DNA of 64,000 bases, taken from positions 682,001 to 746,000 of the forward strand of contig NZ_JACFPL010000001.1 of the NCBI RefSeq assembly GCF_016102005.1, read 5' to 3'. Positions within the stretch are counted from its first letter, which is position 1. Each line of letters opens with the position of its first letter. The stretch is from Bifidobacterium choladohabitans (GTDB lineage: Bacteria; Actinomycetota; Actinomycetes; Actinomycetales; Bifidobacteriaceae). The position numbers and the translations under genes were made by a program. The notes under the pieces are model-generated. The model was not told the origin of the DNA, did no database searches, and worked only from the letters and a program-made list of their open reading frames with translations. Positions 11,919 through 61,839 of the stretch are shown in pieces.

Positions 11919-12096
11919 CGCCTCCAGCCATCAGCTACTTCACTACCCACGCTAGCATCGCAGGAGGCCGGACGCGCTTTGCCGGCTTGACTTCAAGCTG
12001 CTTCAAGGCCTTATCCTTGAACAAGCAGATTAGAGAGGCATGCCCCGCCTTTAACCAACTCCGTCAAGCAATCTGCCAAGAAAGAAGCACAATACC

Positions 12097-36115: not shown

Positions 36116-39100
36116 TCAGTTTTCTACGCTTGCCTCCACCGGTAGGTCCTTTGCAATCCTGGACGTATAGGTTCCATTCTTCCAATCAGCGAGATTGCCG
36201 ACCACGTAGACACGACGCTTGGCTCGCGACACGGCGACGTTGAGCAGGTTGGGCGACCCGTTAACCCATGAACGAGAGCCTTCTCCACGCTTGCCGGCTC
36301 TGCTGCCAAGAACGATGAAGACCACATCGGCTTCCCGCCCCTGGGAGGTGTGGACGGTTCCGGCCTGGCTTGATGCCAGCCGGCTCGCTTCGCTGTCATT
36401 GCAACCAGTGCATTGCCGCAAGGCATCCGCGAAGGTGTCACGCACCTGGTTGGCCACAGCTCTGAACGTAGCGATGACCAGAATATTGGTGGGGTCGATC
36501 CCGCCTTGGAAGAGCCCGCATAGACGCTTGTGTAGTTCGTAGCCTTCCTGCGGCCTCCATTGCGTTCTCCCCGTTTCGCTGGAATTCGGCGGCACATCGT
36601 ACCAGCAGGAGGTCGGCAGCTCATCTCCCGCGCAGGGCCCAGACGGATAGGCACAGGGCTGATGCTCCGGCCCTACACGCACCATCCTGCCGGAGTAGGC
36701 CATATCGTTGCATATGGAAAACATGGGTTCACCACAGCGCCGATGGACCACCAGAGGCATCCCCAGCCAGTGGTCATCCGTCTCGTCCAGCAGACCGCAA
36801 GGCGTCTGGTAATCAACCAAGGCCTGCATGTTTTCGGACTCCAGTCCTAGGTGCTGCAGGTGATGGGTGCTCGCCAGGAGTTCACGCTTCGGCTTGGGCA
36901 TGGTATCCACGGGCTGGAGCTGCATAGGGTCTCCAACTGCAACCGCATGTTTCACGCGCTGCAACAGACCAGCAGCGGCCTGGGGCAGGGCCTGTCCGGC
37001 CTCATCCACAATCGCCCAGCCGAGCGCCTCCTTGCCTATCCCCGAAAACATTCTGGATATTGAAGCAAAGGACGAGGAGACGACTGGGATCTCCAAGAAG
37101 AAAGTCTGCCAAGCCACCAACCTCTCGTCATCCGTAAAGCCATTCGACTGCATCACGGCGCAAGCCAGGGACAGATTGCACATGAACTGGTGCGCAGCAC
37201 CCATGACGGCCTGCTGATGAAGAGCCAGCGCCTTGATATAGACCTCCGTCCGCGCCTTGCTCCATTCCTGGTCCATCCACGCAACATGGTCATCGCCAAT
37301 GTCGGGCCTGGGCCACTGAATCTGTTCGGCTTCAGCAATTTGCTGTTCAAGAGCAGTAAGTTGCCTGGTCAAGGTCGCAATCTGTTTTTGGCATCGACCT
37401 AACTCCTGATCACCGACTTCCAACCCTCCATAGAAGGACTGCAACCGCTGATGGACCGTGCTGGCCTGCTCATCAAAATGCTGCTTCGCGCGACGCGCCT
37501 GCTCCAGATCAGTACGTACCTTAAGCTCGTCCTGCTGCCTTTCGCGGCTGTGGAAAAACGACCTTAGCGGATGCGCCTTCCAGTAAGACAAGTGAGCCTG
37601 ACAAATGCCATCAGCCTGTTCCCAAGCAGCTTGCGCATTATTGGCAGCCTGGCCAGCATCCGACATCTGCCGTTCCATTGATTGAACCTGTCCGACATAC
37701 CTTGAGCGGCTTGCCTTCATGCCAAGGAGTTGTTCATTGAGGGTTTTCAGCTCGGCTGACAGATCAGTTCGCTGATTGCACAGACCTGAATAAGAACGCG
37801 CAAGATTGTACTGGGCAATTTTCCTGGTGCGGATGCTCTCTTCCTTCTTCAGCGCAGCATTAAAGTCGTTCCTGGCCTTTGCCCAATTGGTCCTGCTGCC
37901 TCTTTCACCTGGCATGTATTTCAATGACTTATAGATAAATTCGTTTTTGAAGGGCCACAGGAATCGGTTTTTATTGCTCATATTCCCCAAGACCGCCGAT
38001 ATAAGAGCCCAGGCAGAGGAGGTATTTGAAGGACCACTCTCCTTATCCTGGCTCCTGCGATCGGCAATCTGCCCGGCAAAGTCTCGAAAAGCGAATCCAC
38101 AGGGAACCTGCTTGAATTCACTGTCAATATAGGATTCCCACTCGGTGTCTATAGCATCGGCACTGGGCAGATCCTGGCTGACGTTTTCAACAGCCTCGTT
38201 GTTGCTGGAAGCAACGACAATCTCAAAGCCGGTCACCGACGGATCAAGCGTCCAGTAGACGTAGTCCTTGTCCTCGTCCGAGGTTGCTCTGGCCAGCCTC
38301 CGGGATGTGAAAATATCCTGAGGACGGGAGAATCCTGCCAACCGCCGAGCCCTGGCCACAATAATCTCGGCTACCACATCCTTGAGCAGGGTGGTCTTGC
38401 CGGTCCCAGGAGGGCCATTGACACCTAGAAGCGATGAGCTGCCATATCCTTCCAAGGCCGCCCGTATTTGATTGATCGCCAGCTGTTGGCCTGTCGACTG
38501 GAATTGATTGGAAGCACTCGGCCATCGCCCGAACGGCATGCTGGCAGGTTCCGTGAAGTCGCCGACCAGATGCCCTTCGGGGTCCTTCTGCAGATTGAAC
38601 CGTCGAGGATGACCAACCGATAGATATTGCCTGACCGGTTCAGAAAATATTTCAGGCCCATTTTGATAAAGGTCCTCAAGATCTTCGAGGAAGAAGGAGT
38701 CCATCATTTCGCCATTCAACGATTCTGAACTGGCTTCCAGATGGCAATTGACATAATCCCTGATCAGAGGAGAGCCGTCAGCGCGGGCGAAAAGAGGAGA
38801 GCTACTCACCGCGCGGTCATCCAGTCCCATCCGTTTTGCTACCTGCTCAACGAGGCTTTCGATCTCGTATCTGCCGACCGGACCTGCCTGGTCCTCAGAG
38901 TCTTCCCCAGCCAGACGATTGAATTCGGATTTGAGTTTGCTTTCCGTATCGTCAAATACTTCGATATGTGGCCACCCAGCCGGGCAATCGGGCCAGCCCT
39001 CATGATTGAACAGGCAGGAAACCGCTTTGGCATATTGCGAGAGCATCAACGATCTTGGAACCAGACAGCCATCATCCCCTACGCAGAACTCCATGAGGGA

Positions 39101-39931
39101 AGCCACGGCAGAAGGACCGCCAGCGCGCTTGCTCTGCCGATGGGCAAGCTCCTGCAACACCTCATCCTGAGCAGTCTCCTCGGCTGGCGAGAGCTCTCGA
39201 ACAAGCTTGGCTGCCTTCAACAGCGCATTCGTGACTACACGCTGGGAGAGCCCAACTGCTATTCGAAAACGTTCATGCCTAAGCCATCGATTTTGTCGTC
39301 CTACCCCTTCTTGCTGCTCCGAGCTCTCGCCAGGTTTTACTGCCTGGTGGACGGGGCGACGTGCGAATCGACGGTCATAGTCCTTGCGGTAAACGGCACA
39401 GGCTGAGCCAGGTCGATTGGCCTTTGCTGACAGCTTTTCCACCACCTGTAGCAGGCGCGAAACCATGGAATCCGTCAGTTCAGTACCTGCCGGCAGAGGG
39501 CCGGGCTGCTCAGCCACCTCTAGCCATAACCGGTTCGTCTCCCTAAGCAGACCGGTTATAGTCTGTTCGTCGAGCCCTGATTTTGCCGCCTGCGCGCGCA
39601 ACCAATTCTCGGTATCCTCCGCAAACGAGAAAGGTTTGGTCAGCCGAGCGTACATGTCTGTCTGCAGCCGGTATATTTTCCTGCTCTGCAGGTCGTTATA
39701 GAGGTTTGTATAGGAACGACGCTCATTGTCAACCGGCCCGATGAGAAGATCAGCATGAATGCCATCCCATGGAAGTCGCTCCTGCTCAGCAACGCTTACC
39801 CTGTGGTCGTCGTTGCGGGAGGAGGATAAAGCAATGAGCTGGTTATCCCTCCAAGTTTGTGGCGAGAACAGTTCAACCGCGCACCAATATGACAAAACAT
39901 CCATTGCATGCTGTTGCTCATCGTTCCCCAT
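36116..39931 (-). CDS. Large SF1 helicase/ATPase with central coiled coil, probable defence gene
   Basis: A 1271-residue superfamily 1 (Upf1/DNA2-like) helicase. The first 450 residues are an unassigned N-terminal region. Walker A GPPGTGKTTLL is near residue 510, followed by long coiled-coil segments (about 680-880). DEAGQ in WAIVDEAGQALPQAAAG, VAVGDPMQLQPV, then VHTSQGREADVVFIVLG and NLLNVAVSRAKRRVYVVGN complete the helicase motifs in order. All motifs are intact. The architecture resembles single-gene helicases found in defence islands. It is flanked by a toxin-antitoxin pair and peptide genes, which fits, but no partner gene is visible. The ATG at 39931 has a weak ribosome binding site. 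Confidence 0.8.
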   Translation of the reverse strand: MGNDEQQHAMDVLSYWCAVELFSPQTWRDNQLIALSSSRNDDHRVSVAEQERLPWDGIHADLLIGPVDNERRSYTNLYNDLQSRKIYRLQTDMYARLTKPFSFAEDTENWLRAQAAKSGLDEQTITGLLRETNRLWLEVAEQPGPLPAGTELTDSMVSRLLQVVEKLSAKANRPGSACAVYRKDYDRRFARRPVHQAVKPGESSEQQEGVGRQNRWLRHERFRIAVGLSQRVVTNALLKAAKLVRELSPAEETAQDEVLQELAHRQSKRAGGPSAVASLMEFCVGDDGCLVPRSLMLSQYAKAVSCLFNHEGWPDCPAGWPHIEVFDDTESKLKSEFNRLAGEDSEDQAGPVGRYEIESLVEQVAKRMGLDDRAVSSSPLFARADGSPLIRDYVNCHLEASSESLNGEMMDSFFLEDLEDLYQNGPEIFSEPVRQYLSVGHPRRFNLQKDPEGHLVGDFTEPASMPFGRWPSASNQFQSTGQQLAINQIRAALEGYGSSSLLGVNGPPGTGKTTLLKDVVAEIIVARARRLAGFSRPQDIFTSRRLARATSDEDKDYVYWTLDPSVTGFEIVVASSNNEAVENVSQDLPSADAIDTEWESYIDSEFKQVPCGFAFRDFAGQIADRRSQDKESGPSNTSSAWALISAVLGNMSNKNRFLWPFKNEFIYKSLKYMPGERGSRTNWAKARNDFNAALKKEESIRTRKIAQYNLARSYSGLCNQRTDLSAELKTLNEQLLGMKASRSRYVGQVQSMERQMSDAGQAANNAQAAWEQADGICQAHLSYWKAHPLRSFFHSRERQQDELKVRTDLEQARRAKQHFDEQASTVHQRLQSFYGGLEVGDQELGRCQKQIATLTRQLTALEQQIAEAEQIQWPRPDIGDDHVAWMDQEWSKARTEVYIKALALHQQAVMGAAHQFMCNLSLACAVMQSNGFTDDERLVAWQTFFLEIPVVSSSFASISRMFSGIGKEALGWAIVDEAGQALPQAAAGLLQRVKHAVAVGDPMQLQPVDTMPKPKRELLASTHHLQHLGLESENMQALVDYQTPCGLLDETDDHWLGMPLVVHRRCGEPMFSICNDMAYSGRMVRVGPEHQPCAYPSGPCAGDELPTSCWYDVPPNSSETGRTQWRPQEGYELHKRLCGLFQGGIDPTNILVIATFRAVANQVRDTFADALRQCTGCNDSEASRLASSQAGTVHTSQGREADVVFIVLGSRAGKRGEGSRSWVNGSPNLLNVAVSRAKRRVYVVGNLADWKNGTYTSRIAKDLPVEASVEN

Positions 39932-40133
39932 ATTTGCCAGTATGCGGATAAGCGGGGACAGGCACGAGAATCAGGATCCATGCTCCAGGAGTCAAACTGT
40001 TAGACGGAAGCATAAGGTTATGGACGCGCACAAGTCGCAAGCCAGGGCAGGGACACCGAATCTAACCGAATCCCGTATCAACCTTAAAACCGTCAAGCCC
40101 AAAAGGAATTGGAATAAGTAGGCTCCCAGCACG

Positions 40134-40769
40134 TTACGGCATCTGGCTAAGTGCTCCGTCATTCATGTGGAAAAATTCATCTGCGATTTGCTTAAGCTCA
40201 CCCTGGTGGTGACTGGCGATGATTATAGTCCTGCCCTGATTGCGCTGCCTGATCATCTCGTCCAGGAAGATCCCCACAGAATGCTCATCCAGACCATTCG
40301 TAGGCTCATCCAACAGAATCAGACGCTGGTGTTCCATTAGGGCCTGCACAATAGCGAGCTTCTGCCGCATGCCCAGCGAATAGGATTTAACCTTCTCATC
40401 CACATGGCCATCAAGGCTGAATTCAGTCAGTAGCCGTTCAGTTTCATCAGCATCAAAAGTGTGGTTGATGTTCCCCAGATAACGGAGGTTCTGCATGGCA
40501 GTTTCACTGAGCACAAACCCCGGGTTCTCGATGATCAGGCCGATGGGCTCAGGAAGTCGACGATTGAAAACCACAGGCTGACCTCCAATGGTAACCTTGC
40601 CGGAATCCGGCCGTATAAAGCCGCATATGGCTCGCAGCAGCATTGTCTTGCCCGATCCGTTGGGACCGACTATGCCATAAATCCGTCCTGAATCAAATTC
40701 AGCTTCAACTTGATTGAGCACCCGCTTGCCTTTGTAGGTCTTGCTCAGGCTGTCAACATGAACGAACAT
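40134..40769 (-). CDS. ABC transporter ATPase of the secreted-peptide operon
   Basis: A 211-residue ABC ATPase. Walker A GPNGSGKTMLL, Q-loop region near IENPGF, signature YSLGMRQKLAIVQALM, Walker B LILLDEPTNGLD and the H-loop IASHH are all present. The sequence is closest in style to ATPases of bacteriocin-immunity and ABC-2 exporters (short, no accessory domain). The ATG follows AAGGAG. It is the last gene of a five-gene minus-strand unit starting at 43540: peptide, three permeases, ATPase. Confidence 0.9.
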   Translation of the reverse strand: MFVHVDSLSKTYKGKRVLNQVEAEFDSGRIYGIVGPNGSGKTMLLRAICGFIRPDSGKVTIGGQPVVFNRRLPEPIGLIIENPGFVLSETAMQNLRYLGNINHTFDADETERLLTEFSLDGHVDEKVKSYSLGMRQKLAIVQALMEHQRLILLDEPTNGLDEHSVGIFLDEMIRQRNQGRTIIIASHHQGELKQIADEFFHMNDGALSQMP

Positions 40770-40826
40770 GGGGAGTTCTCCTTATCAAATGGGCGTTAAT
40801 TGTGCTATGAGGCGGCTTCATGACAC

Positions 40827-41492
40827 TCACGCGATTCGGGGATGATCGCAGGCCACAGCGTTCGCGGCAATCAGCGCGACCGTAAGGGCAAGCAGCGATG
40901 GAAGCCATAAGGGTAGAGGACCTGCATGCGCCGTGGAAAACCACCGCGCAGCCGGCCAAAAAGACAGCAGTGACGCATAAATAACGAGAGCAACAATGTA
41001 GCCAGCCGCCCGGTTTGCCAGAAGATAGGAACAGTTAACCATAAGAAGCATGCAGAACAGGGTCAGGCCAGCGCAAATAGCGGTTGACAGCAGTTGACCG
41101 GGAACCAGATCAGGTATCACCACAAAAGAGATGCATGCCTGAATCCCTGTAAAGACCAGGCAGTAAAGGGCTAAAAGTGCCAGGTAACTGGCGAAATGTC
41201 GAATCCCCCGATCCTGACGGATGTAGACCAGCGGATTCGGTATAGCCAGGTATTCCGAAAGCTGCTCAAGAGGAAGGGCCATTCCAGTAATCATGAAAAC
41301 CAGGGCGTGCATGTTAGTCAAGAGATTTGACTCCTGGGGATTTTCACTGAGACGGTACATACCCATAAATATGCTGCTTGGTTTCCTACTGAGATAGTAG
41401 TTGGTCACCAGAACGGCAAATGCCAGCAGAATAAGGGCCCGCAGACCGTTACGTGGTCCAAGTTGCTGCATTGCTCTTCGTAGCGCGTGCAT
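40827..41492 (-). CDS. Membrane permease 3 of the secreted-peptide operon
   Basis: A 222-residue membrane protein with about six hydrophobic segments: LRALILLAFAVLVTNYYL, MHALVFMITGMALPL, YLALLALYCLVFTGIQ, LLSTAICAGLTLFCMLLM, AAGYIVALVIYASLLSFW and LWLPSLLALTVALIAANAV. The start is the ATG at 41492, one base after the stop of permease 2, with GGGTGA upstream. The open frame back to 41636 overlaps permease 2 and is rejected. No family signature is recognised beyond the ABC-2-like layout; the assignment rests on the operon with the ATPase at 40134-40769. Confidence 0.75.
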   Translation of the reverse strand: MHALRRAMQQLGPRNGLRALILLAFAVLVTNYYLSRKPSSIFMGMYRLSENPQESNLLTNMHALVFMITGMALPLEQLSEYLAIPNPLVYIRQDRGIRHFASYLALLALYCLVFTGIQACISFVVIPDLVPGQLLSTAICAGLTLFCMLLMVNCSYLLANRAAGYIVALVIYASLLSFWPAARWFSTAHAGPLPLWLPSLLALTVALIAANAVACDHPRIA

Positions 41493-41493
41493 T

Positions 41494-42189
41494 TCAATCA
41501 CCCAGTCGATCAGTATTACCGAAAGCTGATGAGTTAGCCAGAGCCATAACCGGGCAATAGACAATGAAAGGGACAATCTGTTGTATAACCACAAATTTCC
41601 AATAAGGAGCAACAGGGTACCAAAAGTAAAATACAAACCTAGTAGCGTTACCCGCCAGTGGACTCAACAACCAATCTGCAATAGCGAAAAAACCAATGAT
41701 AATAGGCAGGAATCGTCCCCAGGATATTCCAAGGTTGTTCAGCAGCAGGCAGACCAGACCCACAGAGATAATCATCATGAATATTTGCACAGGGACCATC
41801 AGGGAAACAGACAAGGCCATAGGTGTTATCTGCTGGCCCTGCAATGGGAACTCAATCAAGAAAAACAACAGCCACGTGTATAAAGCTCCGACGATACCGA
41901 CAAGTGCGCACCACAGCAAGTTGGTTTTCAACTGCAAACGCGGATCGCGCCTGACCATTTCGAAGGTCGAATACCTAGCACTTCCAGCGTATAACAGCAT
42001 CAGGAATACGGGCAATACTCCGATAGTAGGGCAGTTGAGCATGAACCCCGCATAGTCCATCACTGGATCCTTCTCCATGTTGAGAAATAACTGGGTCGTG
42101 CAATAGATAAAGCCAAATAGGAAGAGTCCGGTAAGAACCATTTTGGAACCGAAGGAGGAACGACGCAGGTAGATCAGATGATTAATCAT
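41494..42189 (-). CDS. Membrane permease 2 of the secreted-peptide operon
   Basis: A 231-residue membrane protein with six hydrophobic spans, including MVLTGLFLFGFIYCTTQLFL at the N-terminus and LPIIIGFFAIADWLLSPLA. The true start is the ATG at 42189, which overlaps the stop of permease 1 as ATGA; the open frame reaching 42381 is not coding. The motif ARYSTFEMVRRDPRLQLKTNLLW after the second span is a cytoplasmic loop typical of ABC-2-type permeases. It is likely a subunit of the same transporter. Confidence 0.75.
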   Translation of the reverse strand: MINHLIYLRRSSFGSKMVLTGLFLFGFIYCTTQLFLNMEKDPVMDYAGFMLNCPTIGVLPVFLMLLYAGSARYSTFEMVRRDPRLQLKTNLLWCALVGIVGALYTWLLFFLIEFPLQGQQITPMALSVSLMVPVQIFMMIISVGLVCLLLNNLGISWGRFLPIIIGFFAIADWLLSPLAGNATRFVFYFWYPVAPYWKFVVIQQIVPFIVYCPVMALANSSAFGNTDRLGD

Positions 42190-43091
42190 GAAACATCTCG
42201 GCTTCGTTTGAATGCAACAAGCGAGGCCGATATGACAACCGGCAGGCATACCGAAAGGGCCATTCCTACGAAGATCTGCACAAGTTGTCGAGAATCTGCG
42301 CCCCCAGGAGCAGGGAAGAGAAATATCATATGGCTCCATTGGTCGGGCACAAGAAAATTGGTCATTCCTGGGAGCATCCACCAGAGCATGCTAAGGACGA
42401 AGGGGATGAGAACTTCAACATACCTATGGGTAGTAAAGAACGATGCAGCGACGGCAATATCTGCGAACAGGCCCGAAAGAATGAATACCATTAGCATAAC
42501 CGTGAGGATAGCCAATGGCTGATTGAAGCGGTACAACGGATACAGCCACGAATCTGAATAAATGAGCACATATTTGGATCCGTCAACCAAACCCGTGGCA
42601 TCCACGACATCACCATTGATGAAATTCATGTGTGGGTTCATGATTGCTGCAACAACCAAGTTTATCAAAAGCGGGCTCAACCCCCCTATGCCTCCCAAAA
42701 CAAATCCGGATGCCAGCGAGGTGTTCATGATTTTGCCGCGTCCCTCGCGTCCCAGCATTCCACTCATACGTCGACTATGCCGCTCGATTGCAGCTACACT
42801 GCCGCCTACAAGAGCAGCAAGAAAAGGAAGAATGAATAGATAAAGTCCCGATCCAGTCCCATGGCAACTGAATAACATCACGTCGCTGAGGAAAGTCAGT
42901 TCATGACCAGGAGCTAACCGAAAGCCAGCATAATGCGTCGTCGAATACTGGATTAGGAAAAGTGCAATCGACATCGCAATTACCGAAACCATTCGAAGAC
43001 TAGTCAAGCTGCGAGAGATTTGAGCCTTAGCCAGGGATGTATTAATCAAAATACTCCTCCGTTGAACATAAGAGTTGACAAGTCCCTTCAT
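42186..43091 (-). CDS. Membrane permease 1 of the secreted-peptide operon
   Basis: A 301-residue membrane protein with about six spans. The first is near residues 35-55 (VSVIAMSIALFLIQYSTTH); others include LYLFILPFLAALVGGSVAAIE, FVLGGIGGLSPLLINLVVAAIM, LAILTVMLMVFILSGLFADIAVAASFF and FVGMALSVCLPVVISASLV. A large loop lies between spans 3 and 4. It starts 32 bases after the peptide gene and overlaps permease 2. Together with permeases 2 and 3 and the ATPase it may form an exporter or an immunity pump for the adjacent secreted peptide. Confidence 0.75.
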   Translation of the reverse strand: MKGLVNSYVQRRSILINTSLAKAQISRSLTSLRMVSVIAMSIALFLIQYSTTHYAGFRLAPGHELTFLSDVMLFSCHGTGSGLYLFILPFLAALVGGSVAAIERHSRRMSGMLGREGRGKIMNTSLASGFVLGGIGGLSPLLINLVVAAIMNPHMNFINGDVVDATGLVDGSKYVLIYSDSWLYPLYRFNQPLAILTVMLMVFILSGLFADIAVAASFFTTHRYVEVLIPFVLSMLWWMLPGMTNFLVPDQWSHMIFLFPAPGGADSRQLVQIFVGMALSVCLPVVISASLVAFKRSRDVS

Positions 43092-43123
43092 CCATCTAAT
43101 GGTCGAAGGAACTTGCCGTTGTC

Positions 43124-43540
43124 TCAGGCTGAGTCAGGACTCCACACACCATAGGCCTGTGTGGTCCCGGAATAGGCATATGCGTGCTGCAACCTCATAT
43201 GGACCTGTTTTCTCCCAAACTTCTGATATGCATAGTTGTGTACATATTGGTACTGGCCAGATTTCAGATTCACAGTTGCCGAATTGACATCTTCGTTGGA
43301 ATAACCTAGCATCCAGCTGCAAATTGTACGGCCATTGGATACACTGGTTGCCTTGATGTATCCTGAACTGGCATCCTGCTTTTGACGATTTGGAGTATCA
43401 CTAGTTTGCCAGCTCGAGAGATAGGCGCTCCATCCAGTATCCGCGTGATTGTTAGCAAATGCAGCTGGTGCAAAGCTAAGTGATGCAGCAAGCGCTAAAG
43501 CTACAGCCATGCCTTTCTTTTTTAGATTTTTTAACAACAT
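43124..43540 (-). CDS. Secreted peptide precursor (DUF2712-like), candidate bacteriocin
   Basis: A 138-residue preprotein. It has a clear Sec signal peptide (MLLKNLKKKGMAVALALAAS, then LSFAPAAFA, cleavage likely after AFA), leaving about 108 residues rich in Ser, Tyr, Gln and Asn with a single Cys, ending WSPDSA. The beta-type pattern and WSPDS ending resemble the small secreted DUF2712 family, often found beside ABC transporters; the match is from memory and tentative. CTAAGGAGGTCATA before the ATG at 43540 is a near-perfect ribosome binding site, and a consensus promoter lies just upstream. Its ABC operon points to an antimicrobial or signalling peptide. Confidence 0.75.
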   Translation of the reverse strand: MLLKNLKKKGMAVALALAASLSFAPAAFANNHADTGWSAYLSSWQTSDTPNRQKQDASSGYIKATSVSNGRTICSWMLGYSNEDVNSATVNLKSGQYQYVHNYAYQKFGRKQVHMRLQHAYAYSGTTQAYGVWSPDSA

Positions 43541-43582
43541 TATGACCTCCTTAGTACTGCCATAGTAACTAGAGTCAAATTT

Positions 43583-43612
43583 ATTATACTGATAAATAAG
43601 TCTCACTGTCAA
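43583..43612 (-). promoter_or_regulatory. Consensus promoter of the secreted-peptide operon
   Basis: On the minus strand: TTGACA (43612-43607), 18-base spacer, TATAAT (43588-43583). Both hexamers are exact sigma-70 consensus, about 45 bases before the peptide ATG. One of the strongest promoters in the window. Confidence 0.85.
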
Positions 43613-43941
43613 ATTAGCTTTTCGTCATCTTTTGTTTTCAGCTTCAACACAGCCGAATTTCCTTCAAAACTCTACGATTATGCCCCTGGATGCTCTGTCT
43701 TCCCTTGTCTCGCAAACAGCTGCCAGTCATGCAGAAGAGCTGAAAAATAGGTCAAACAGCAGATGAAACCGACAGTGTCAATGTTGATAATTTTGTTCAA
43801 CACTACCTCTGTATGGAAAAGAGTGATGAAGTGGCACACAGTTGATCCATAATGGCTTTGCGGAAGATGAAGTAGGGCGCAAACTGTGCCCTTATCTGGT
43901 GCAGCGAGAGCAAGTGCAGTCACCGCACCGGGAAAGGGCGA
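43613..43941. other. Gene-free stretch between the peptide operon promoter and the P-type ATPase
   Basis: About 330 bases. An 81-codon minus-strand frame (43678-43923) begins at an unsupported start, lacks a ribosome binding site and has a Cys/His-rich, unprotein-like composition, so I do not call it. No RNA gene or terminator is evident. Confidence 0.4.
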
Positions 43942-46900
43942 TCATGCCCGCAGTCGTCTGACTGCCCAGTTGAACAGCTTGCGCAGTTCCGAAGCCACTA
44001 GAACCAGGGAGGCCAGGGCGATGCACTCCAGCCACGCCTGGGGCTGGAGGGGGACGGTGCCGAAAGCCTCGCCCAGGAAGGGCACATAGATCACCAGAAG
44101 CTGGAGCAGTATGGAGATTCCTATGGCACCCCAGAGCCAGAGGTTGCTGAAGAGCCCCAGGAAGGCCGACTTGCGGGAGGAGCGGGAGGCCAGGGCGTTG
44201 AAGAGCTGGGCGAAGACCAGGATGGTGAAGCCCATAGTCCGCGCCTCCCTGATCTGTGCCTCGTGACCGATCGCTTGGACGGACCTGTCGGTGAAGAGGC
44301 CGCCGCTCAGGTGCATGTCCATGCCGATTAGGGTGACCACGGCCATGATCAGGCCTATGTAGATGATGTCAACCCACATGTCCCGGTCGATCACCCGGTC
44401 GTTGATGGATCGGGGCGGGCGATCCATCAGATCATCGGTCTGCGGGTCCACACCCATGGCCAGCGCGGGGGCCGCATCGGTCAGGAGGTTGATCCAGAGC
44501 AGCTGGGTGGCCAGCAGCGGCACGGTCACGCCCGCCATGCCGGGCTGCGATATGCCCAGAAGCCCCGCAAAGACCACGCCGCCGAAGACCGTGAAAACCT
44601 CTCCCATGTTGGAGCTGAGCAGGTAGCGCAGGAACTTGCGGATGTTGTCGAATATGCCCCGGCCCTCTCTCACGGCCTGGACGATGGTGGCGAAATTGTC
44701 GTCCGCCAGGATCATCTTGGCTGACTCCTTGGTGACCTCGGTTCCGGTGATGCCCATGGCCACGCCGATGTCCGCGGTCTTGACAGCAGGGGCGTCATTG
44801 ACGCCGTCGCCGGTCATGGCCACGACCTTGCCCTGGTCCTGGAGCGATTCGACGATCCTCAGCTTGTGCTCGGGGGCCACGCGGGCGTAGACGGAGACCT
44901 TGGAGGTGGTCTCACGAAGCTGGTCCGAATCCATGGCATCCAGCTGCTCGCCGGTGCAGGCGGGCTGTCCAGGCTTGATGATGCCCAGGTCCCCTGCGAT
45001 TCTGGCTGCGGTGAGTGGATGGTCGCCAGTGATCATGATCGTTCTGATACCGGCCTTGTGAGCCTGGTCCACCGCCTGGCGGACCTCGGTGCGGGGCGGG
45101 TCGATGATGCCGACCATGCCCGTCCAGATCAGACTGCTCTCCAGTCGAGTCCTTTCCTGGATCACCTTATCCGCGGACAGACGGACCGCTGGAGCATGCT
45201 GAGACATCCGAGACAACTGGTCTGTCTGGTCTGTCTGGTCTGTCCGAATCGTGCTTGACAGTCTCTCCCCTTCGTCAGCTTCGGTTAGGGACAATAGCTC
45301 ATGGTCAGATATAGGCCGGAAAGCCTGCCCCAGAGTCCTATAGGCATCCGACGAGAGGCTGCTGACTTGGGCGAGTATCCTCTCCCGGTCAGCGCTAGTC
45401 ATAGGCCTGACCTGGCTGTCTTCGAGAATCCGGTCGCACCGGCCGAGCAGCACATCGGGAGCACCCTTGCAGAAGAGGCGCGATTGCCCTTCGCTGCCGT
45501 CACGCGGAGCGGCCAGGACCGACATGAGCTTGCGCTCGGACGTGAAAGGAATCTCAGCCAGACGACGGTAGCCGTCAGCCTTGGCATCAGCGCCGACTTT
45601 GCGAGCGGCGACAATCAGAGAGACCTCCGTGGGATCGCCGACGCTCTGCCAGTGACCCTGCCCGGATCCAGACTGGGTCTGGGAATCAGGTTCGGCCTCG
45701 ACCGGCTGCCAATGCAGGTCTCCGTCGTTGGCGATGGCCCCGACCATCAGGGTCTCTTCCACTGCCTCAGCCAGAGATGAACCAATGGTATCTGTCAGTT
45801 GTTGATCATCTGACCCACTGGCCTCGACCGGCTGCATGGTTCCCTCCGGAGCGTACCCGGTGCCAGTGAGCCTGACCTGCCCCGAGGGGACGACCACCCG
45901 TTCAACGGTCATTTCATTGCGTGTAAGAGTCCCTGTCTTGTCGGAGCAGATGACTGATGCCGATCCCAGGGTCTCCACCGAGCTGAGCTTCTTGACGATG
46001 GCATGATGCTTGGCCATGCGCTGCACGCCCAGGGCGAGAACCACAGTCAGGATGGCCGTCAGCCCCTCCGGCACAGCAGCTACGGCCAGGGATACGGCCA
46101 TGAGCAGGGAATCAATCAGATCCTGGGTTGTCTGAAAGCCTTCCATCAGGGCCAAAGCAGCCAAAACCAGGGCGGCAATCAAGCAGACGGCCAGTCCGAG
46201 GAGCTTGGAGACGCGGGCCATCTCCTTCTGTAGGGGCGTGGGTTCCTCCTGGGTATCAGCCAGCATGTCGGCGATCTTCCCGACCTGGGTGTCCATACCA
46301 GTAGAGGTGACGATCATGCGCCCGTTCCCCTGGGTCACTGCGGTGCCGTTGAAGACCATGTTGGTTCTGTCACCCAGAGCCTTGGGCTGGTCAAGCCGAC
46401 CGGGCCGCTTGCCCACCGGCAGCGACTCGCCGGTCAGCGATGCCTCGGCCACGCGCAGACCCGCGGCCTGGAACAGTCTTCCGTCGGCGCCGACCGAATC
46501 GCCTTCAGCCAGGACTACTACATCACCAGGCACGATCCTGCTGGTCTCCAGGCTGACCACCCGGCCGCCTCGCAGCACCGAGGCGTGCGGGGCCGTCATG
46601 CTCGCCAGAGCATCCACAGCCCGCTCGGCCTTAGCCTCCTGAGCGTACCCCAGGGCGGCATTAAGGATGAGGATGATCATGATGACGATGGCATCAAAGG
46701 GCAGGGGCTCCCCGCCTCCTGATGCCGGATGTGAGCGTTCCACCACCCAGGCCACCAACGAAATGGCCGTGGCTGCCAGAAGCAGATAGACCAAGGGGTC
46801 CTTGAACTGTTGAAGGAATTTCCTCCATGCAGGAACGGGAGGCGCTCCAGCCAGCTCATTAGGACCGAACCTGTCCAGCCGACGCGCCGCCTCGGCCTCA

Positions 46901-47708: not shown

Positions 47709-47906
47709 TGGACCTGCAGCTAATCCACAAAAATATGCCACTGCGATGACGTATTCACCAAAATGGCATGGGCTGTCATTTTTGCCTTGATGATGGCAAG
47801 GACAACAGTCATGTAAGTCTATGGGTGCCATCCTTGTATGGCATCCATAGCATTATTCTGATGAAGATTTATAAGTCGCGAGAACGGCGATGATGGGAGA
47901 ACGGTG

Positions 47907-48608
47907 ATGAGTGGTGCTTCAGTGAGTTCAAATGGATTGACGATGACGGTGACTCCGAGGAAGGATGATTCGATCACCATCCTCGACCATGTCGACTTCC
48001 ATGCTGAGCCCGGAAGAATCACGGGGATTGTCGGCCCCTCAGGCAGCGGAAAGTCCACCTTGCTGTACTGCCTTTCGGGATTGGAACGTGCGACATCCGG
48101 AAGCATCTCCCTTCTAGGGCATGACATCACGCATATGCGAGCGTCCGCGCTCACTCGGTTTCGGCGTCGGCATCTGGGATTCGTGTTTCAGTCCTACAAC
48201 CTGATCACGAGCATGACGGTGGAGGAGAACCTCGCGCTGCCATTCACCCTGCGCGGCCGTCGACTCCCCAAGCAAAAAGCGGATGAGATGTTGCGGTACT
48301 TCGGATTGGCAAACGAGAAAAAAAGGAGCGTGACGATGCTCTCAGGCGGAGAGCAGCAACGTGTCGCGCTTGCACGAGTGCTACTCTCCGATGCAGATAT
48401 CATTTTCGCCGACGAGCCGACTGGAGCCTTGGATCAGGAATCTGGCGCCAAGGTCATGCAGGTGTTCAAAAGTCTGGCTATGGATGCGGGCAGGACCGTA
48501 GTAATAGTGACCCACAGTGGAGAGGTAGCCGGACAGTGCGACCAGATCGTTGAGGTCCGTGATGGCCACGTGCTGAACGCCGATGCGGAGAGCGGGGCCG
48601 GTATATGA
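47907..48608 (+). CDS. ABC transporter ATPase (MacB/BceA-type)
   Basis: A 233-residue ABC ATPase of the group that works with FtsX-type permeases. Walker A GPSGSGKSTLLYCLSGLE, Q-loop FVFQSYNLITSMTVEEN, signature LSGGEQQRVALARVLL, Walker B IIFADEPTGALD and H-loop VTHS are all intact. The ATG at 47907 follows GGGAGA; a GTG one codon earlier is the frame start. The stop overlaps the start of the permease gene as ATGA. It lies about 200 bases after the precursor peptide and may provide self-immunity against the mature peptide, as such pairs do in other lanthipeptide loci. Confidence 0.92.
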   Translation: MSGASVSSNGLTMTVTPRKDDSITILDHVDFHAEPGRITGIVGPSGSGKSTLLYCLSGLERATSGSISLLGHDITHMRASALTRFRRRHLGFVFQSYNLITSMTVEENLALPFTLRGRRLPKQKADEMLRYFGLANEKKRSVTMLSGGEQQRVALARVLLSDADIIFADEPTGALDQESGAKVMQVFKSLAMDAGRTVVIVTHSGEVAGQCDQIVEVRDGHVLNADAESGAGI

Positions 48609-50035
48609 GGGGCGCACTCTCTGATCTGAAAGCAGCCCCGGCCGTATGGGCAGGCGTATGGCTGTCACTAATCGTTTCCCAGACCGCTGTGTGCACTATT
48701 GTCGCCGCGCGCAGGGCTATTGATGCCGCTTACCACGGACCGGATGCCGGGCTAGGCGCCAACCTTTCCGGCCCAGCAATGCTGTTCAGCGTGGTCATAG
48801 CCGTGTTCGTAATGCTGTGGGTCGTGACCGCCGCTCTGAACCAGCGTCGGCACCAACTAGCATTGCTGGTCCTTCAAGGCGCCACGCCTTGGCAGCTGCT
48901 CTTCGGGAATCTGGCTATCATCATCGTCCTATTCATCTTGGCAGCAGTAGCGTCATCCCTCCTGACGCCGCTGGCAGCACCATATCTGTTCGACCTCCTG
49001 GCCAGAGCATTCGAGCTGAAACTGACGTATCAAGCAACCCAGCTGCTGGCATCCATCGGCACTGGGTTGGCCATTGCCGGAGTCGCCGTCCTTGCAGGCA
49101 CAGTGCTGACCGTGCGCACACTATCCAAGATCAGGCCGATAGAGGCGCTTCGGCAGTCACAAAACCCGCCGAGACAAGTGAACGCATTCCGTGTTCTGCT
49201 AGGCGCATCGTTGCTCGTGGGAGCGATATGCGCGCTCATCATCCCGGGGACAGCTACACGCAAGATAGACTCTGGCGAGCTCGCCACGCACATTTCCGGC
49301 AGGAATCCCATAGAGTCCAGAGTGACAGGATTCATTGGGTTCTCCATGGGAGGCATGTTCCTCCTGATCTTCGCATTGGCTGTTCTGGCTCCCTATGTCA
49401 TGCACTGGTTCACCAAAGGATGGACGCATCTTCTCCCCCTGCCGTTCAGCACCTGGAAACTCGCTAGGCAGCAGGCCGTTGGGAGGATCCAACGACAGAA
49501 CGCGACCATCATTCCCATGACGGCCGGCTTGTCGTTGCTCATGACTTTCTCTGGTGTGTTGCATACGCTGACCGACAGCCTCAAGAATTTCGCCAGTAAC
49601 GGCCATTCCATGAACGTGAACCCACACATGCTGACGAACCTGATGGCCATGCTCGGCCCTGCGCTCATCATCGCTTTGGTGGGCGCAATCTCCGGACTGA
49701 TGATCACCGCACGAGGGCGACGCCTGGATCTGGCGCTGACATACGTATCCGGTGCCAGTACCGGACAGTTGCGCATTTTGGGAGCCCTCGATGGTCTCAT
49801 TTCGATGGTCACCTCGGTGCTGCTCGCCTTCGTCATCACACTGCTCAGCACCTGCGGCACCGCCTTCATGCTGCAACGATATCTGGGAAGCGCAAAGATA
49901 AGCGTTCAATGGGGATATTGGGCGGTCATCGCACTCCTCGCTATTGTCGTAGGCGCCCTCGTCACAGGCGTGCAGGCGCTGTGCGCGCGTTCCGAGGATT
50001 CTGTGAGGGTCATATCACGTGCAGTCGGTGAGTAA
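48605..50035 (+). CDS. FtsX-type ABC permease, partner of the upstream ATPase
   Basis: A 476-residue membrane protein with about ten hydrophobic segments in two FtsX-like halves and no large extracytoplasmic domain. The loop RRHQLALLVLQGATPWQLLFGN after the second span and RGRRLDLALTYVSGASTGQLRILGALDG near the end are the paired cytoplasmic motifs of the family. It starts inside the stop codon of its ATPase gene (ATGA), so stoichiometric synthesis is likely. Export of hydrophobic peptides or protection from them is the usual role. It is complete, unlike the exporter downstream. Confidence 0.9.
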   Translation: MRGALSDLKAAPAVWAGVWLSLIVSQTAVCTIVAARRAIDAAYHGPDAGLGANLSGPAMLFSVVIAVFVMLWVVTAALNQRRHQLALLVLQGATPWQLLFGNLAIIIVLFILAAVASSLLTPLAAPYLFDLLARAFELKLTYQATQLLASIGTGLAIAGVAVLAGTVLTVRTLSKIRPIEALRQSQNPPRQVNAFRVLLGASLLVGAICALIIPGTATRKIDSGELATHISGRNPIESRVTGFIGFSMGGMFLLIFALAVLAPYVMHWFTKGWTHLLPLPFSTWKLARQQAVGRIQRQNATIIPMTAGLSLLMTFSGVLHTLTDSLKNFASNGHSMNVNPHMLTNLMAMLGPALIIALVGAISGLMITARGRRLDLALTYVSGASTGQLRILGALDGLISMVTSVLLAFVITLLSTCGTAFMLQRYLGSAKISVQWGYWAVIALLAIVVGALVTGVQALCARSEDSVRVISRAVGE

Positions 50036-50057
50036 CCACCCCCAACAAAGGACGAAA

Positions 50058-50265
50058 ATGTCGCCACACAAGCGGAATAGTAATGAGAAAACCGCATCTT
50101 TGATAGACGTGCCCCGCCTTTTGAAATCCATAAGGGTGTTTTATTCACGGTTAGTCTGCTAAGTATAGCGAGCGCCCTCTTAAATCTGGCTCAGCCACAG
50201 CTTGTCAATGTCATTCTTGGACGCGTGCAGCATAACATGCGATCCGCAGTGCCCCTCTAATAGCG
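50058..50265 (+). pseudogene. Out-of-frame N-terminal piece of the ABC exporter
   Basis: An ATG at 50058 with AAAGGA upstream opens a frame MSPHKRNSNEKT, then ASLIDVPRLLKSIRVFYSRLVC, stopped by TAA at 50160. The exporter sequence continues in the +2 frame as SIASALLNLAQPQLVNVILG, then RVQHNMRSAVPL, stopped at 50258. It then passes to the frame of the long ORF (IALAGVFLSG). These pieces together form the usual first membrane segments of an ABC exporter, so two single-base-type frameshifts separate the true start from the rest. The second lies at a CCCC run (50252-50255). Confidence 0.7.
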
Positions 50266-51864
50266 TTGGCAGGAGTGTTTCTGTCCGGCGCAGCAATCAC
50301 TTCTTTTGACGCTTACCTGCTGTTGAACGATATGAGACGGTCTCTAGTAATGCATATTCTGCATTTGCCGTTCAAAGATCTGGACCAGTCGCATACAGGC
50401 AACGTAATTTCTATTATTTCATCTGATACAAATGAGCTGAAGCGCTTGCTGACCGATGGATTACCAGAAGTGTTTGGCACTTTACTGGTGTTCATAGGCG
50501 CGTGTGTGGGAATGGTCATAATCAGTCCCGTCATGTTCGTTATCTCTCTTTCGACCTGTCTTGTTACCGTCGGTTTACTGGTAGTCTTATCCGGAAAATT
50601 ACAAGACTTCTCCAGAGGGGCTCAAACGGCCATAGGAGATATGACGTCTGCAGCCACTGATGCTTTGATGGGTTTAAAAACGATCAGGGCCTTCAACGCT
50701 ACAGAGCAGGAGACCGACATAATCAGCGAAAAGGCCAAACAAGCGTACACATTTGGTCGTCTAATTTCCAAGAAGCAATCACTAATACAGCCATCAGGAA
50801 TGGCCTTAATGCAGTTGTGCCTAATGATTGTATTGGGGATCGGCGCTTTCCAAGTGGTCAAAGGGGTGATGACTGTTCAGCAACTGGTAACTTTCTCTAT
50901 GTACTTAGAAATGATGTTTACACCTATGGCGACACTTTCGTCGGCATTTAGCAGCCTGTTCAGAGCGTTGGGCGCATACTCCAGAATTCAAGCAATAATG
51001 GGAATGTCGACCGAAGATGCAACGTCAGCAGGAGCAGTGTCCTGTAAGCTCCAAAGGAAGATCCCCAACCCCGATCGGATTGACATCGATTTTGACCATG
51101 TTGATTTTTCTTATGATGACACACAAGAAAATCGTGGCAAGCTCCAATTGAATGATGTAAGTGTACATATGAAAGGCGGTGACGTCTACGCGATAGTCGG
51201 ACCATCCGGAGCAGGGAAATCAACCATGCTGGCCCTCATAGAGGCATTCTATAAGCCGAATCATGGCCACATTCTCTTTAATGGTGTTGACATTTCAACG
51301 CTTAGCTCCTCTTATGTACATTCTCTGATCGGCTATGTTGAACAAGATGCCCCTATCTATTCTGGTTCTTTCAGAACGAATTTGGCGATGAACAAGAACG
51401 ACGTATCTGATGAAGACTGCTGGGATGCCTTGAATAAGGTGAACCTCGCGCAAAAAGTGAGAGGCACCTCCGATGGATTGGATACCTTGGTAGGCGAACG
51501 CGGTGTGTTGCTGAGTGGTGGTGAACGTCAACGCTTGGCCCTGGCAAGGTTGTTGCTCATAAAGCGGCCAATTATCTTGCTTGACGAAACAACCTCTAAT
51601 TTAGACGCTAAAAACGAGGAGTTGGTCACACAAGTTATTCATGCCAATTTTCCCGAGCAGACAATTGTTATGGTAGCTCATAGATTAGAATCGATCGCTT
51701 CGTCAGATAGAATCATAGTTTTGGCCAGTGGAACCATCAACGGAGTTGGGACACATGCTGATCTGAGCATGAACAATCCTTTGTACCAACAATTGTGTAG
51801 GAATACAGGGATGGATGACATTGATTTAAGTCACATGCAGGAAAGATGCATCAATGGACAATAG
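50266..51864 (+). CDS. ABC exporter (MdlB/LanT-like, no peptidase domain), N-terminally frameshifted
   Basis: A 532-residue ABC half-transporter. The membrane domain lacks its first segment because the gene is split over frames upstream. Remaining segments include VFGTLLVFIGACVGMVIISPVMFVISLSTCLVTVGLLVV and MALMQLCLMIVLGIGAFQVV. The nucleotide-binding domain has Walker A GPSGAGKSTMLALIEAFY, signature LSGGERQRLALARLLL, Walker B IILLDETTSNLD and the switch His in VAHRLES. There is no N-terminal C39 peptidase, so leader removal must be done by another enzyme, probably the peptidase gene that overlaps its 3' end by 11 bases. The TTG start given is only the open-frame start. Confidence 0.8.
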   Translation: MAGVFLSGAAITSFDAYLLLNDMRRSLVMHILHLPFKDLDQSHTGNVISIISSDTNELKRLLTDGLPEVFGTLLVFIGACVGMVIISPVMFVISLSTCLVTVGLLVVLSGKLQDFSRGAQTAIGDMTSAATDALMGLKTIRAFNATEQETDIISEKAKQAYTFGRLISKKQSLIQPSGMALMQLCLMIVLGIGAFQVVKGVMTVQQLVTFSMYLEMMFTPMATLSSAFSSLFRALGAYSRIQAIMGMSTEDATSAGAVSCKLQRKIPNPDRIDIDFDHVDFSYDDTQENRGKLQLNDVSVHMKGGDVYAIVGPSGAGKSTMLALIEAFYKPNHGHILFNGVDISTLSSSYVHSLIGYVEQDAPIYSGSFRTNLAMNKNDVSDEDCWDALNKVNLAQKVRGTSDGLDTLVGERGVLLSGGERQRLALARLLLIKRPIILLDETTSNLDAKNEELVTQVIHANFPEQTIVMVAHRLESIASSDRIIVLASGTINGVGTHADLSMNNPLYQQLCRNTGMDDIDLSHMQERCINGQ

Positions 51865-53677
51865 CAAGCCGTTTCGCATTGGCGATTGGTGGTATTCAGA
51901 AACAAGCAATTCCAATAACGATTTCATTCTTGAAAGGCTTTCATGCGGGGACAAGTCAAAGGAACGCCACCCAAAAATCGCCTGCAAATTAAGCGCTTCC
52001 GTCATTAACCGATTTTATGGATTGCAAATCGGCTTCAACGGGAAGATCGCCGTCTCCATCCTCCACTCTGAATTGGATTCGTCGTACGAGTTGAATCTAA
52101 TAGCACTAGAAACAGCCACTTTACTGACGACTGTCAATACCGCAGGTAGTGATGTCTGCTTATCGCCTGATGATTCGTGGTTGTACTATCTATCGCTCGA
52201 TAGAGATGGAAGTCCCAAAGAACTCAGGAAGAGACGTACAGCATTCCCATTTCTAGATGTTAACCTTAAGACTTTGTCAGTAGGGAAATGGGCCACGATA
52301 GATGTGTTACCTTCGCGCAGATTTCTTTTTCTGCATGAGGGAGACAGCACCTTCCTTATACACACTGATGGTCATCTCGCTGATTCCCCTCAATTATGCT
52401 CGCGAAACGTCAATGGCCTGAGAAAAGTTCAAGATGTAAGTGCTAAAGGGAACACGTACTTCATTGGGTACGGAAATGATGGAGAAGACCAGCAATACAT
52501 CATCGTTGTTAACGGAGAAAAGAGCTTATTGAGACCACAAGCTTGGAAATATGTCCATGTAAGCGTCAAGGGCATCATCACTGACTATGCGATTTTCAAC
52601 GACGAGATTCTTCTGGTTATCCGCACAGGCGGTGATGAAAATATCATATGGACAACCTGGATGAGCGTCATCAATGAACCAGGCGAAGTGAAATGGAAGA
52701 TGGTAGCAACGGAACCAAGCGTGCATCATACTTCGCTTTTTCTGGTACAGGCGTTTAGTCCTCAGCATTGCCAAATGATGGTGGATGTTTGTTGTCCGGC
52801 TTGCAAAGTCTCTTCATATGCCTATATAGGAAAGGGCATTGTTGATTGGCACAAGGGGCTAGACCGTCATCACCAAATGATTGAACCAAATCATTATATT
52901 AGATTTCTTACTCCCCTATCATACGATAACGCAAAAATCCCTGTTACATTGATTTGTCCTAAAAACACGAGAGAAACTCCGCTTAATAACACAGTAGTGG
53001 TTCTTTTGGTATATGGCGCTTACGGGAAAAATCTTGATCCTACATACGATTCATCCATCCAATATCTGGTGAGCAGAGGCATGCATATAGCCTATGCGCA
53101 TGTCAGGGGAGGAGGCGAGCTTGGGACTGAATGGCATCACGCCGGCCAGAGGGGTAACAAACAAAACGCCATAAATGATTATATATCGGTGTCTATATCC
53201 ATAAAACATGAATGTGCTGGGGATGATGTGCACATCATTGCTGCGGGAGCAAGTGCGGGAGGAGCGATAGCGGCTGCAGCATTAAACCAACGCCCTGATC
53301 TATATGATGCCGCATACTTAGTGGCACCATTTATTTCGCCGCTAAAAGCAGTTCTTAATGACAGAAACCCTAGGCTTGCTATAGACCAAGAGGAATTTGG
53401 AAGAACCCAATATCCTCGAGAAATTGAATATCTTAGATCTTGGTCTCCTCTGGAAAATGTTGCCCACCAATCTTATCCTCCCATATGCATTGCTGTTAAT
53501 AAACTTGATACTAATGTGAATAATTCGGATATATATCTATATGCGAGGAAAATACGAGCCGCTGGCGGCAGGATTTTCATTTCAACTAGAGAACAGGCGA
53601 CTCACACTTTCGTCTTGCCTTCTAAAGATATCTTTGATGAAATTAATTGGTTGCTTAATTTTCAGCATGATACGTAG
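51854..53677 (+). CDS. Prolyl oligopeptidase-family serine peptidase, candidate leader protease
   Basis: A 607-residue S9-family (prolyl oligopeptidase/oligopeptidase B-like) enzyme without a signal peptide. The N-terminal part forms a divergent beta-propeller. The C-terminal alpha/beta-hydrolase has VRGGGELGTEW (417-427), the nucleophile elbow GASAGG with Ser467, Asp552 in NKLDTNV and His584 in EQATHTF, a complete triad. Class III lanthipeptide loci often use such peptidases (FlaP type) to trim modified precursors. The gene starts within the end of the exporter gene, so coupling is strong. Low GC and odd codon use mark it as acquired DNA. Confidence 0.88.
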   Translation: MDNSKPFRIGDWWYSETSNSNNDFILERLSCGDKSKERHPKIACKLSASVINRFYGLQIGFNGKIAVSILHSELDSSYELNLIALETATLLTTVNTAGSDVCLSPDDSWLYYLSLDRDGSPKELRKRRTAFPFLDVNLKTLSVGKWATIDVLPSRRFLFLHEGDSTFLIHTDGHLADSPQLCSRNVNGLRKVQDVSAKGNTYFIGYGNDGEDQQYIIVVNGEKSLLRPQAWKYVHVSVKGIITDYAIFNDEILLVIRTGGDENIIWTTWMSVINEPGEVKWKMVATEPSVHHTSLFLVQAFSPQHCQMMVDVCCPACKVSSYAYIGKGIVDWHKGLDRHHQMIEPNHYIRFLTPLSYDNAKIPVTLICPKNTRETPLNNTVVVLLVYGAYGKNLDPTYDSSIQYLVSRGMHIAYAHVRGGGELGTEWHHAGQRGNKQNAINDYISVSISIKHECAGDDVHIIAAGASAGGAIAAAALNQRPDLYDAAYLVAPFISPLKAVLNDRNPRLAIDQEEFGRTQYPREIEYLRSWSPLENVAHQSYPPICIAVNKLDTNVNNSDIYLYARKIRAAGGRIFISTREQATHTFVLPSKDIFDEINWLLNFQHDT

Positions 53678-57404: not shown

Positions 57405-57480
57405 GATCGGCTCCTTCTCTGCGCTTGGCCTCCCCCGGCTCAGCCGGCATACATGCCTGTCAGGCGTTTCTCAGCCCAGT

Positions 57481-58350: not shown

Positions 58351-58351
58351 G

Positions 58352-59895: not shown

Positions 59896-59990
59896 GATCG
59901 GCTCCTCTCCGTTTCCGTATGGCAGGAGCCAGACTAAAGACCGAAAATAAAGAAAGATAAAGGTAAACGTGCCTGAACATAGTCTTATAC

Positions 59991-60006: not shown

Positions 60007-60166
60007 CGGTCGCCCTATGCCTGCGGACTTTACCCGACTGGTTAATTTGGCTGTTCTCTGTCCTGATCGATAACCATATACTGAGACTATAAATATGTGC
60101 GGTCCGTCCAGCAGCATGATCTGCCTGTTTGATATCGCACATGCAGGAGCACAAGGAGCACATGGA

Positions 60167-61822: not shown

Positions 61823-61839
61823 TTAGTGAATTACTAGTC

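Follow-up and report, generated by a model that had tools for sequence, protein, structure and literature searches.

A five-gene operon of Bifidobacterium choladohabitans encoding a Sec-type secreted peptide and a three-permease ABC transporter: a probable bacteriocin with its immunity pump

We analyzed a 64,000-nucleotide stretch of the Bifidobacterium choladohabitans genome (NCBI RefSeq assembly GCF_016102005.1, contig NZ_JACFPL010000001.1, positions 682,001 to 746,000; hereafter the window). A five-gene operon runs on its minus strand from position 43540 to 40134 and encodes, in order, a secreted peptide, three permeases (P1, P2 and P3) and an ATP-binding cassette (ABC) ATPase. This is the gene content that an earlier note, made by a model from the bare sequence, had given for the interval. 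The assembly comprises 2,075,734 bases in 10 contigs, and B. mellis is the closest named relative among the loci compared. The features of the operon, in window positions, are as follows.

43583 to 43612, minus strand: promoter, TTGACA and TATAAT 18 bases apart, hexamers matching the consensus at 12 of 12 positions
43545 to 43552, minus strand: ribosome binding site, AAGGAGGT, preceding the peptide ATG
43124 to 43540, minus strand: secreted peptide gene, 138 amino acids
43540 to 43454, minus strand: peptide signal, 29 amino acids, ending AFA (signal and cleavage site assigned by eye)
43453 to 43127, minus strand: mature peptide, 109 amino acids, N-terminal NNHADT, C-terminal GVWSPDSA
42186 to 43091, minus strand: permease P1, 301 amino acids, about 6 transmembrane segments
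41494 to 42189, minus strand: permease P2, 231 amino acids, about 6 transmembrane segments, start overlapping the P1 stop
40827 to 41492, minus strand: permease P3, 221 amino acids, 5-6 transmembrane segments, start placed by homologue alignments
40134 to 40769, minus strand: ABC ATPase, 211 amino acids, Walker A GPNGSGKT, Q-loop IIENP

The start of P2 lies within the end of P1, and a single base separates the end of P2 from the start of P3, an arrangement suggestive of a single transcript and translational coupling. For P3, a longer open reading frame (ORF) begins at a TTG within P2; we used instead the start at which relatives align. The arrangement is not a chance one, since it recurs in relatives. 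The promoter had been called a perfect consensus, and in the window it is. A perfect promoter was rejected as a trait of the family, being found only in the window, L001 and L016 among 15 upstream regions. An Rfam search gave no match within 39000-45000. PADLOC matched the ATPase, through its ATPase domain, and none of the other four operon proteins.

The Sec signal proposed for the peptide stands, but the mature length of 108 residues does not, as cleavage after AFA leaves 109. AlphaFold2 predicted a mostly beta mature peptide, modeled as a beta-sandwich (predicted local distance difference test score, pLDDT, 89.3; predicted template modeling score, pTM, 0.83). The best PDB matches to this model were the Ena2A pilin, PirA, two carbohydrate-binding modules (CBM86, Z 8.0; CBM36, Z 7.2) and GOLD domains. 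Because these lie at the level of the common beta-sandwich background, we claim no target from the fold. 2LGN, the structure compared for the Lactococcin 972 fold, was not among the PDB matches listed for the model; its absence from that listing does not count against a shared fold. The peptide profile gave one chance match to the sequences of solved structures (E 1.3), and the peptide matched nothing in phage records.

Two known families had been named for checking, DUF2712 and Lactococcin 972, and neither took in the peptide. DUF2712 (PF10916) matched residues 44-137 of the window peptide faintly (E 0.066, 14.3 bits against a cut-off of 22) and 5 of 11 peptide family members at E ≤ 1 (best E 0.013). 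Searched at genome scale, the model missed the peptide gene in its own genome and had no match in 296 genomes of the phylum; the control, B. subtilis, was matched. With matches this faint, below the cut-off, we did not assign the peptide to DUF2712. Profile searches led us to reject Lactococcin 972, and so did a profile-profile comparison. PF09683 matched none of the 11 family members at E ≤ 1, TIGR01653 (which we take to be the Lactococcin 972 model) did not match the window peptide at E ≤ 10, and hhalign of the peptide profile against four PF09683 genes gave a probability of 0.4%.

The PF09683 model does work in this genome, since the genome's own Lactococcin 972 gene scores 44.3 bits. That gene belongs to a separate system on contig 8 (G000, 11794-11946; L080, 5660-8843), with a PF09683 peptide, a 685-residue permease and a 240-residue ATPase; the permease matched DUF1430 just under the cut-off (E 1.1e-5, 26.1 bits against 28.2). 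Like the operon, Lactococcin 972 systems have a Sec-signal peptide followed by permease and ATPase. However, they carry one large DUF1430 permease where the operon has three small ones, and the mature part of Lactococcin 972 is about 66 residues long, against 109 here.

The three permeases are as distinct from one another as had been claimed, with pairwise hhalign probabilities of 0.14%, 0.17% and 0.53%. None matched Pfam at E ≤ 10, DUF1430 included. P1 is the most widely conserved of the set. Its structural model had low confidence (pLDDT 64), and its best PDB rows (NosY, PmtCD, Mla, KpsM and ABCG proteins) were ABC-2/type V exporters, none of them significant (best E 0.022). For the short ATPase of the window, as for the ATPases in L016 and L049, the lantibiotic-protection ATPase model TIGR03740 ranked first in NCBIfam. 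Most ABC ATPases carry glutamine in the Q-loop; in 25 ATPases compared here it is replaced by glutamate, in the pattern IIE(N/H/T)P in 20 and as LIENP or MIENP, read by eye, in 5. This glutamate, which the operon ATPases have, is presumably a hallmark of LanF.

In these respects the operon resembles the LanFEG/CprABC-type lantibiotic immunity and resistance pumps (NisFEG, CprABC, NsrFE1E2G). The likeness covers one short ATPase combined with several small permeases of about 6 transmembrane segments, TIGR03740 as the top model for the operon ATPase, the Q-loop glutamate, and the existence of peptide-less versions with a two-component system. There are also differences. The operon peptide is an unmodified Sec-type protein and no lanthionine enzymes occur among the five genes, unlike in lantibiotic systems. 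LanFEG pumps have two permeases, whereas the operon has three of full size. Three permeases per ATPase had been thought unusual; the number is uncommon, but it has a precedent in NsrFE1E2G of S. mutans, for which the available text of PMC5786555 gives three transmembrane subunits. NsrE1 and NsrE2 are 82 and 171 residues long, in contrast to the full-size permeases of the operon.

Formal membership in LanFEG was rejected, as the ATPase fell below the cut-off and no permease matched MutE or MutG. A second transporter in the window served as control: its ATPase (59949-59203) passed TIGR03740 at 335.7 bits, and its permeases matched MutE (58355-59203, 95.9/145.2 bits) and MutG (57484-58350, 77.6/117.2 bits), both below the cut-off. 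These genes are part of a LanFEG/CprABC-type module at 55177-59949 on the minus strand, which comprises the ATPase, MutE- and MutG-like permeases, a response regulator and a histidine kinase. Since the Lactococcin 972 and LanFEG tests both failed with working controls, we describe the operon as probably LanFEG-like in action and do not file it as a member.

Peptide and pump genes occur together in relatives. A peptide scan of 84,980 species genomes, which detects close relatives only, returned 12 loci, all in Bifidobacterium; P1, P2, P3 and the ATPase come after the peptide match in every one, with the peptide broken in L005. Among 189 Bifidobacteriaceae genomes (161 of high quality), the peptide profile matched 18 (17) and the P1 profile 27 (25). 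All 18 peptide genomes also have P1 (Fisher p 7e-19, relatedness not corrected), and no peptide without P1 was seen in the 189. P1 without the peptide occurs in 9 further genomes, partially in two (G118 and G137). Counted by match, a P1 match lies within 400 bp of all 20 peptide matches (on the opposite strand in two, G002 and G096:C3), and 13 of 33 P1 matches have no adjoining peptide match. Of these 13, we read ten loci (L070-L079); one more is the additional P1 of L006, and the partial matches of G118 and G137 were left out.

All four pump genes are present without the peptide at the ten loci read, and eight of these look complete. The genomes of L077-L079 carry a peptide-type locus elsewhere. 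Genes for a response regulator and a sensor-kinase-like protein adjoin the pump in 6 of the 10, divergent in L072, L074 and L076 and in line in L077, L078 and L079; L073 retains a remnant. In Pfam, the L072 and L077 regulators matched Response_reg and GerE, and the kinases gave weak HisKA_3 matches below the cut-off. Relatives of these regulators flank 7 of 19 peptide-type loci; the window and the 11 others have none in the DNA examined, which for L011 was only 230 bp upstream. By analogy, a lone pump with two-component genes is the layout of CprABC-type resistance modules. There the orphan pump defends against foreign peptides, according to the available text of PMC10257480 and PMC5786555.

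Several loci appear to have lost the peptide and kept the pump. In the sister genome G022 (L070), 84 bp stand in place of window positions 43107-43586 and the peptide gene is gone. Alongside this scar the −35 hexamer is retained and the −10 altered, and what is left of the peptide's last codons is recognizable by eye. None of the four transporter ORFs is shorter than its window counterpart, and P1 is 99% identical. In L005 (B. pongonis) and L044, a TGA lies inside the peptide frame and the four pump genes cover their profiles fully. In both, the TGA sits at a conserved tryptophan near the mature start (at about 8097 and about 8765, respectively), in two independent events of the same kind.

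The comparison of L003 (B. merycicum) with L006 (B. erythrocebi) reveals an exchange of modules. Synonymous divergence (dS) was 2.0 for the peptide, 2.1 for P1 and 1.2 for P2, against 0.13 for P3 and 0.11 for the ATPase. Because the peptide, P1 and P2 changed together, P1 and P2 probably recognize the peptide. Upstream in L006 lies an extra P1 of 288 residues, 98.4% identical over 764 nucleotides and 93% over the protein to the P1 of L003, with a fragment of P2 after it; in L045 a comparable extra P1 stands with a fragment of the peptide. Judged from sequence, these leftovers fit what the swapping of one toxin-immunity allele for another would leave behind.

Compared with B. mellis, the window's mature peptide shows 13 nonsynonymous changes and 1 synonymous change (signal: 0 and 1), and its four transporter genes together show 11 and 14. 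The difference between peptide and transporter genes gave a Fisher p of 0.005 for the mature part and 0.0095 for the whole peptide gene (13 and 2). Silent-site divergence was 0.014-0.036 across the operon and 0.146 in the neighboring P-type ATPase gene (ratio of nonsynonymous to synonymous divergence, dN/dS, 0.17). The lower value in the operon hints at a recent exchange between the two lineages. We used the P-type ATPase gene as the rate control and dropped the helicase-like gene at 36116-39931, whose codon alignment was unreliable: it held 687 differences in 1268, against a tblastn identity of 95.8%, probably owing to a stop in the other copy.

The family extends beyond Bifidobacterium. A tblastn search with the peptide found three Lactococcus plasmids (29.5% identity), 8.5-9 kb in size and typed mobilizable, that, apart from replication or mobilization genes, encode the peptide with three permeases, the ATPase and one small membrane protein. 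By its content, such a small plasmid looks like a bacteriocin plasmid. The set recurs on a fourth Lactococcus plasmid, of 82 kb, where a regulator gene has been inserted behind the peptide gene; the peptide is 60% identical to the first plasmid peptide. There the set adjoins a Blp-family class II bacteriocin (Pfam Bacteriocin_IIc, 4.6e-8), HlyD and an ABC protein for peptide cleavage and export. Within the phylum of the window, the peptide profile matched 4 of 296 genomes, its own included. By eye, we found a second group of members on plasmid records of Collinsella aerofaciens and Vescimonas fastidiosa, followed by two permeases, an ATPase and a DUF5028 protein. L049, from the same phylum as the window, has DUF5027 and DUF5028 proteins.

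Profile-profile comparison joined the Bifidobacterium peptides to those of Lactococcus (98.5%, E 2.4e-15) and to the second group (98.8%, E 9e-17), and the C-terminal G-x-WSPD and the Sec-type signal are common to the peptides compared from all three. P1 is homologous across all groups compared (hhalign 86.9-99.7%); Bifidobacterium P2 and P3 had no match outside Bifidobacterium in the same comparison. On the V. fastidiosa plasmid (L058, 1861-7912), a single run holds a GEWSPDS peptide, a sigma factor, a DUF4367 protein, a second secreted protein, two permeases, an ATPase, a DUF5028 protein and a signal peptidase. A Lachnospira eligens plasmid (L060, 1607-9042) has related permease and ATPase genes with AgrB, a cyclic lactone autoinducer peptide, a LytTR regulator and a histidine kinase, and is perhaps a quorum-controlled relative. 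P1-type permeases were also matched on the small plasmids L056 and L057 and on nine other Lactiplantibacillus plasmid records; the small secreted protein encoded by L056 is divergent and lacks the WSPD end, and it may represent a different type of toxin.

We propose, with a probability of about 0.74, that the operon encodes a bacteriocin together with an ABC pump that confers immunity in the manner of LanFEG/CprABC. The observations behind the proposal are the gene content, the Sec-type signal, the conservation and co-occurrence of the genes, the loss of the peptide where the pump is retained, and the exchange of modules. The 138-residue precursor would leave the cell via Sec and be cut after AFA to release a 109-residue beta-sandwich protein, which would damage or inhibit related bacteria. 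Its target is probably in the envelope, by analogy with other Gram-positive bacteriocins. P1, P2, P3 and the ATPase would form one ABC-2 type pump that clears the peptide from the producer's own membrane, much as LanFEG/CprABC act against lantibiotics. P3 and the ATPase would be the common core, and recognition of the cognate peptide probably falls to P1 and P2.

The earlier note had favored immunity or sensing over export for the transporter, and this is supported by the Sec-type signal and by the distribution of the genes. Immunity is indicated because the pump is common without the peptide and the peptide was not seen without the pump, because the pump genes were kept after the peptide deletion in G022 and the peptide stops in L005 and L044, and because of the L003/L006 module exchange and the fast change of the mature peptide in one pair. 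The note's suggestion of a little-described bacteriocin family likewise fits the genetics, together with the best ATPase model, the mobilizable plasmids and the class II bacteriocin neighbor.

Partial parallels exist among characterized systems. Mr10EFGH (enterocin MR10/AS-48) is, like the operon's pump as we read it, a bacteriocin immunity pump that also occurs as an orphan, but its subunits are a transmembrane protein, an accessory adaptor, an ATPase and one permease, and its bacteriocins are different (available text of PMC10598978). Mediterrocin, in what is available of PMC12345188, is an active peptide of the Sec type, with an ABC protein and a DUF1430 protein encoded in its cluster. For pseudocin 196, the accessible part of PMC11305057 reports that bifidobacterial LanFEG-type genes with a helper protect partially.

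A number of observations weigh against this proposal. Our search for inhibition or immunity data turned up none, and the PDB searches with the peptide model showed no outstanding toxin-like fold. The window ATPase scores 147 bits against TIGR03740, far below the LanF cut-off of 309.75, and P1-P3 match no MutE/EpiE or MutG model (TIGR03732, TIGR03733) at E ≤ 10. The diversifying signal comes from a single species pair (the window and B. mellis); changes are too few in L042/L043 and L016/L017, and no nonsynonymous excess is seen in L003/L006. Two of the ten pump-only loci are decayed (P1 and P2 shortened in L073, P2 in L077) and the P1 matches in G118 and G137 are only partial; the decayed loci suggest that the pump can also become dispensable. 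The genes flanking the operon in the window, helicase-like and P-type ATPase, do not point to a bacteriocin. Finally, one plasmid record names the strain L. lactis UC109, and the six strains inhibiting strain HP in a published screen do not include it (available part of PMC6458302). UC109 is cremoris in that source and lactis on the plasmid record, and its inclusion in the screen and its identity with the plasmid isolate are unclear.

It is unlikely that the peptide is instead a signal, a pheromone sensed by the ABC proteins and a two-component system in the manner of BceAB. The two-component genes at 7 of 19 peptide-type loci and at 6 of 10 pump-only loci, the remnant in L073, and the agr-type quorum genes beside the related permease/ATPase set of L. 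eligens all suit such a role. However, the window and 11 other peptide-type loci lack relatives of those regulators in the DNA examined, pumps are retained where the peptide is lost, and a folded protein of 109 residues is large for a pheromone. The short permeases also leave no room for the extracellular domain of 200-250 residues that the available text of PMC5786555 gives for BceB.

The peptide might otherwise be a harmless wall- or sugar-binding envelope protein, with the pump handling envelope stress or the peptide of another bacterium. Its generic beta-sandwich, the middling carbohydrate-binding module matches and the resemblance of lone pumps with two-component systems to CprABC resistance modules are compatible with this, but we think it improbable: the joint exchange of peptide, P1 and P2 and the rapid change confined to the mature peptide better fit a matched toxin-immunity pair, and a plasmid copy adjoins a bacteriocin. 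That the four ABC proteins export or mature the peptide is very unlikely despite the shared operon and strict co-occurrence, since a Sec-type signal with an AxA site should make an exporter needless, and the four pump genes stand without the peptide at ten inspected loci, complete in eight.

If the operon is a bacteriocin with its immunity pump, its natural variants amount to an experiment already under way: a shared P3/ATPase with differing peptide-P1-P2 sets, a sister strain in which the peptide is deleted, and lone extra P1 alleles. They make the specificity of the pump testable through simple subunit swaps in hosts that are food-grade or commensal. To our knowledge, unmodified, Sec-secreted, folded bacteriocins are few, and we know of no general account of which subunit of LanFEG-kind pumps recognizes the peptide. 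At somewhat less than even odds, we further suggest a new superfamily of beta-sandwich bacteriocins that are secreted through Sec, end in G-x-WSPD and span Actinomycetota and Bacillota; its Bifidobacterium branch would use a pump with three different permeases, in which toxin, P1 and P2 are exchanged together as a matched cassette that sets specificity and P3 and the ATPase do not change.

The peptides are labeled "hypothetical protein" in all plasmid records examined, so mining tools tied to named bacteriocin families would probably overlook them. A literature search, outside which most subscription journals lie, found no paper naming DUF2712, DUF2705 or DUF5028, and the motif WSPDS/GVWSPD returned unrelated papers only. 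Elsewhere in the window, on the plus strand, positions 47904-53677 hold an ABC ATPase and a large permease, followed by an ABC exporter with fused ATPase and a peptidase of the prolyl oligopeptidase family; this module could process and export a peptide. The ORFs at 60095-63138, also on the plus strand, were read by eye as the methylase and specificity subunit of a type I restriction-modification system.

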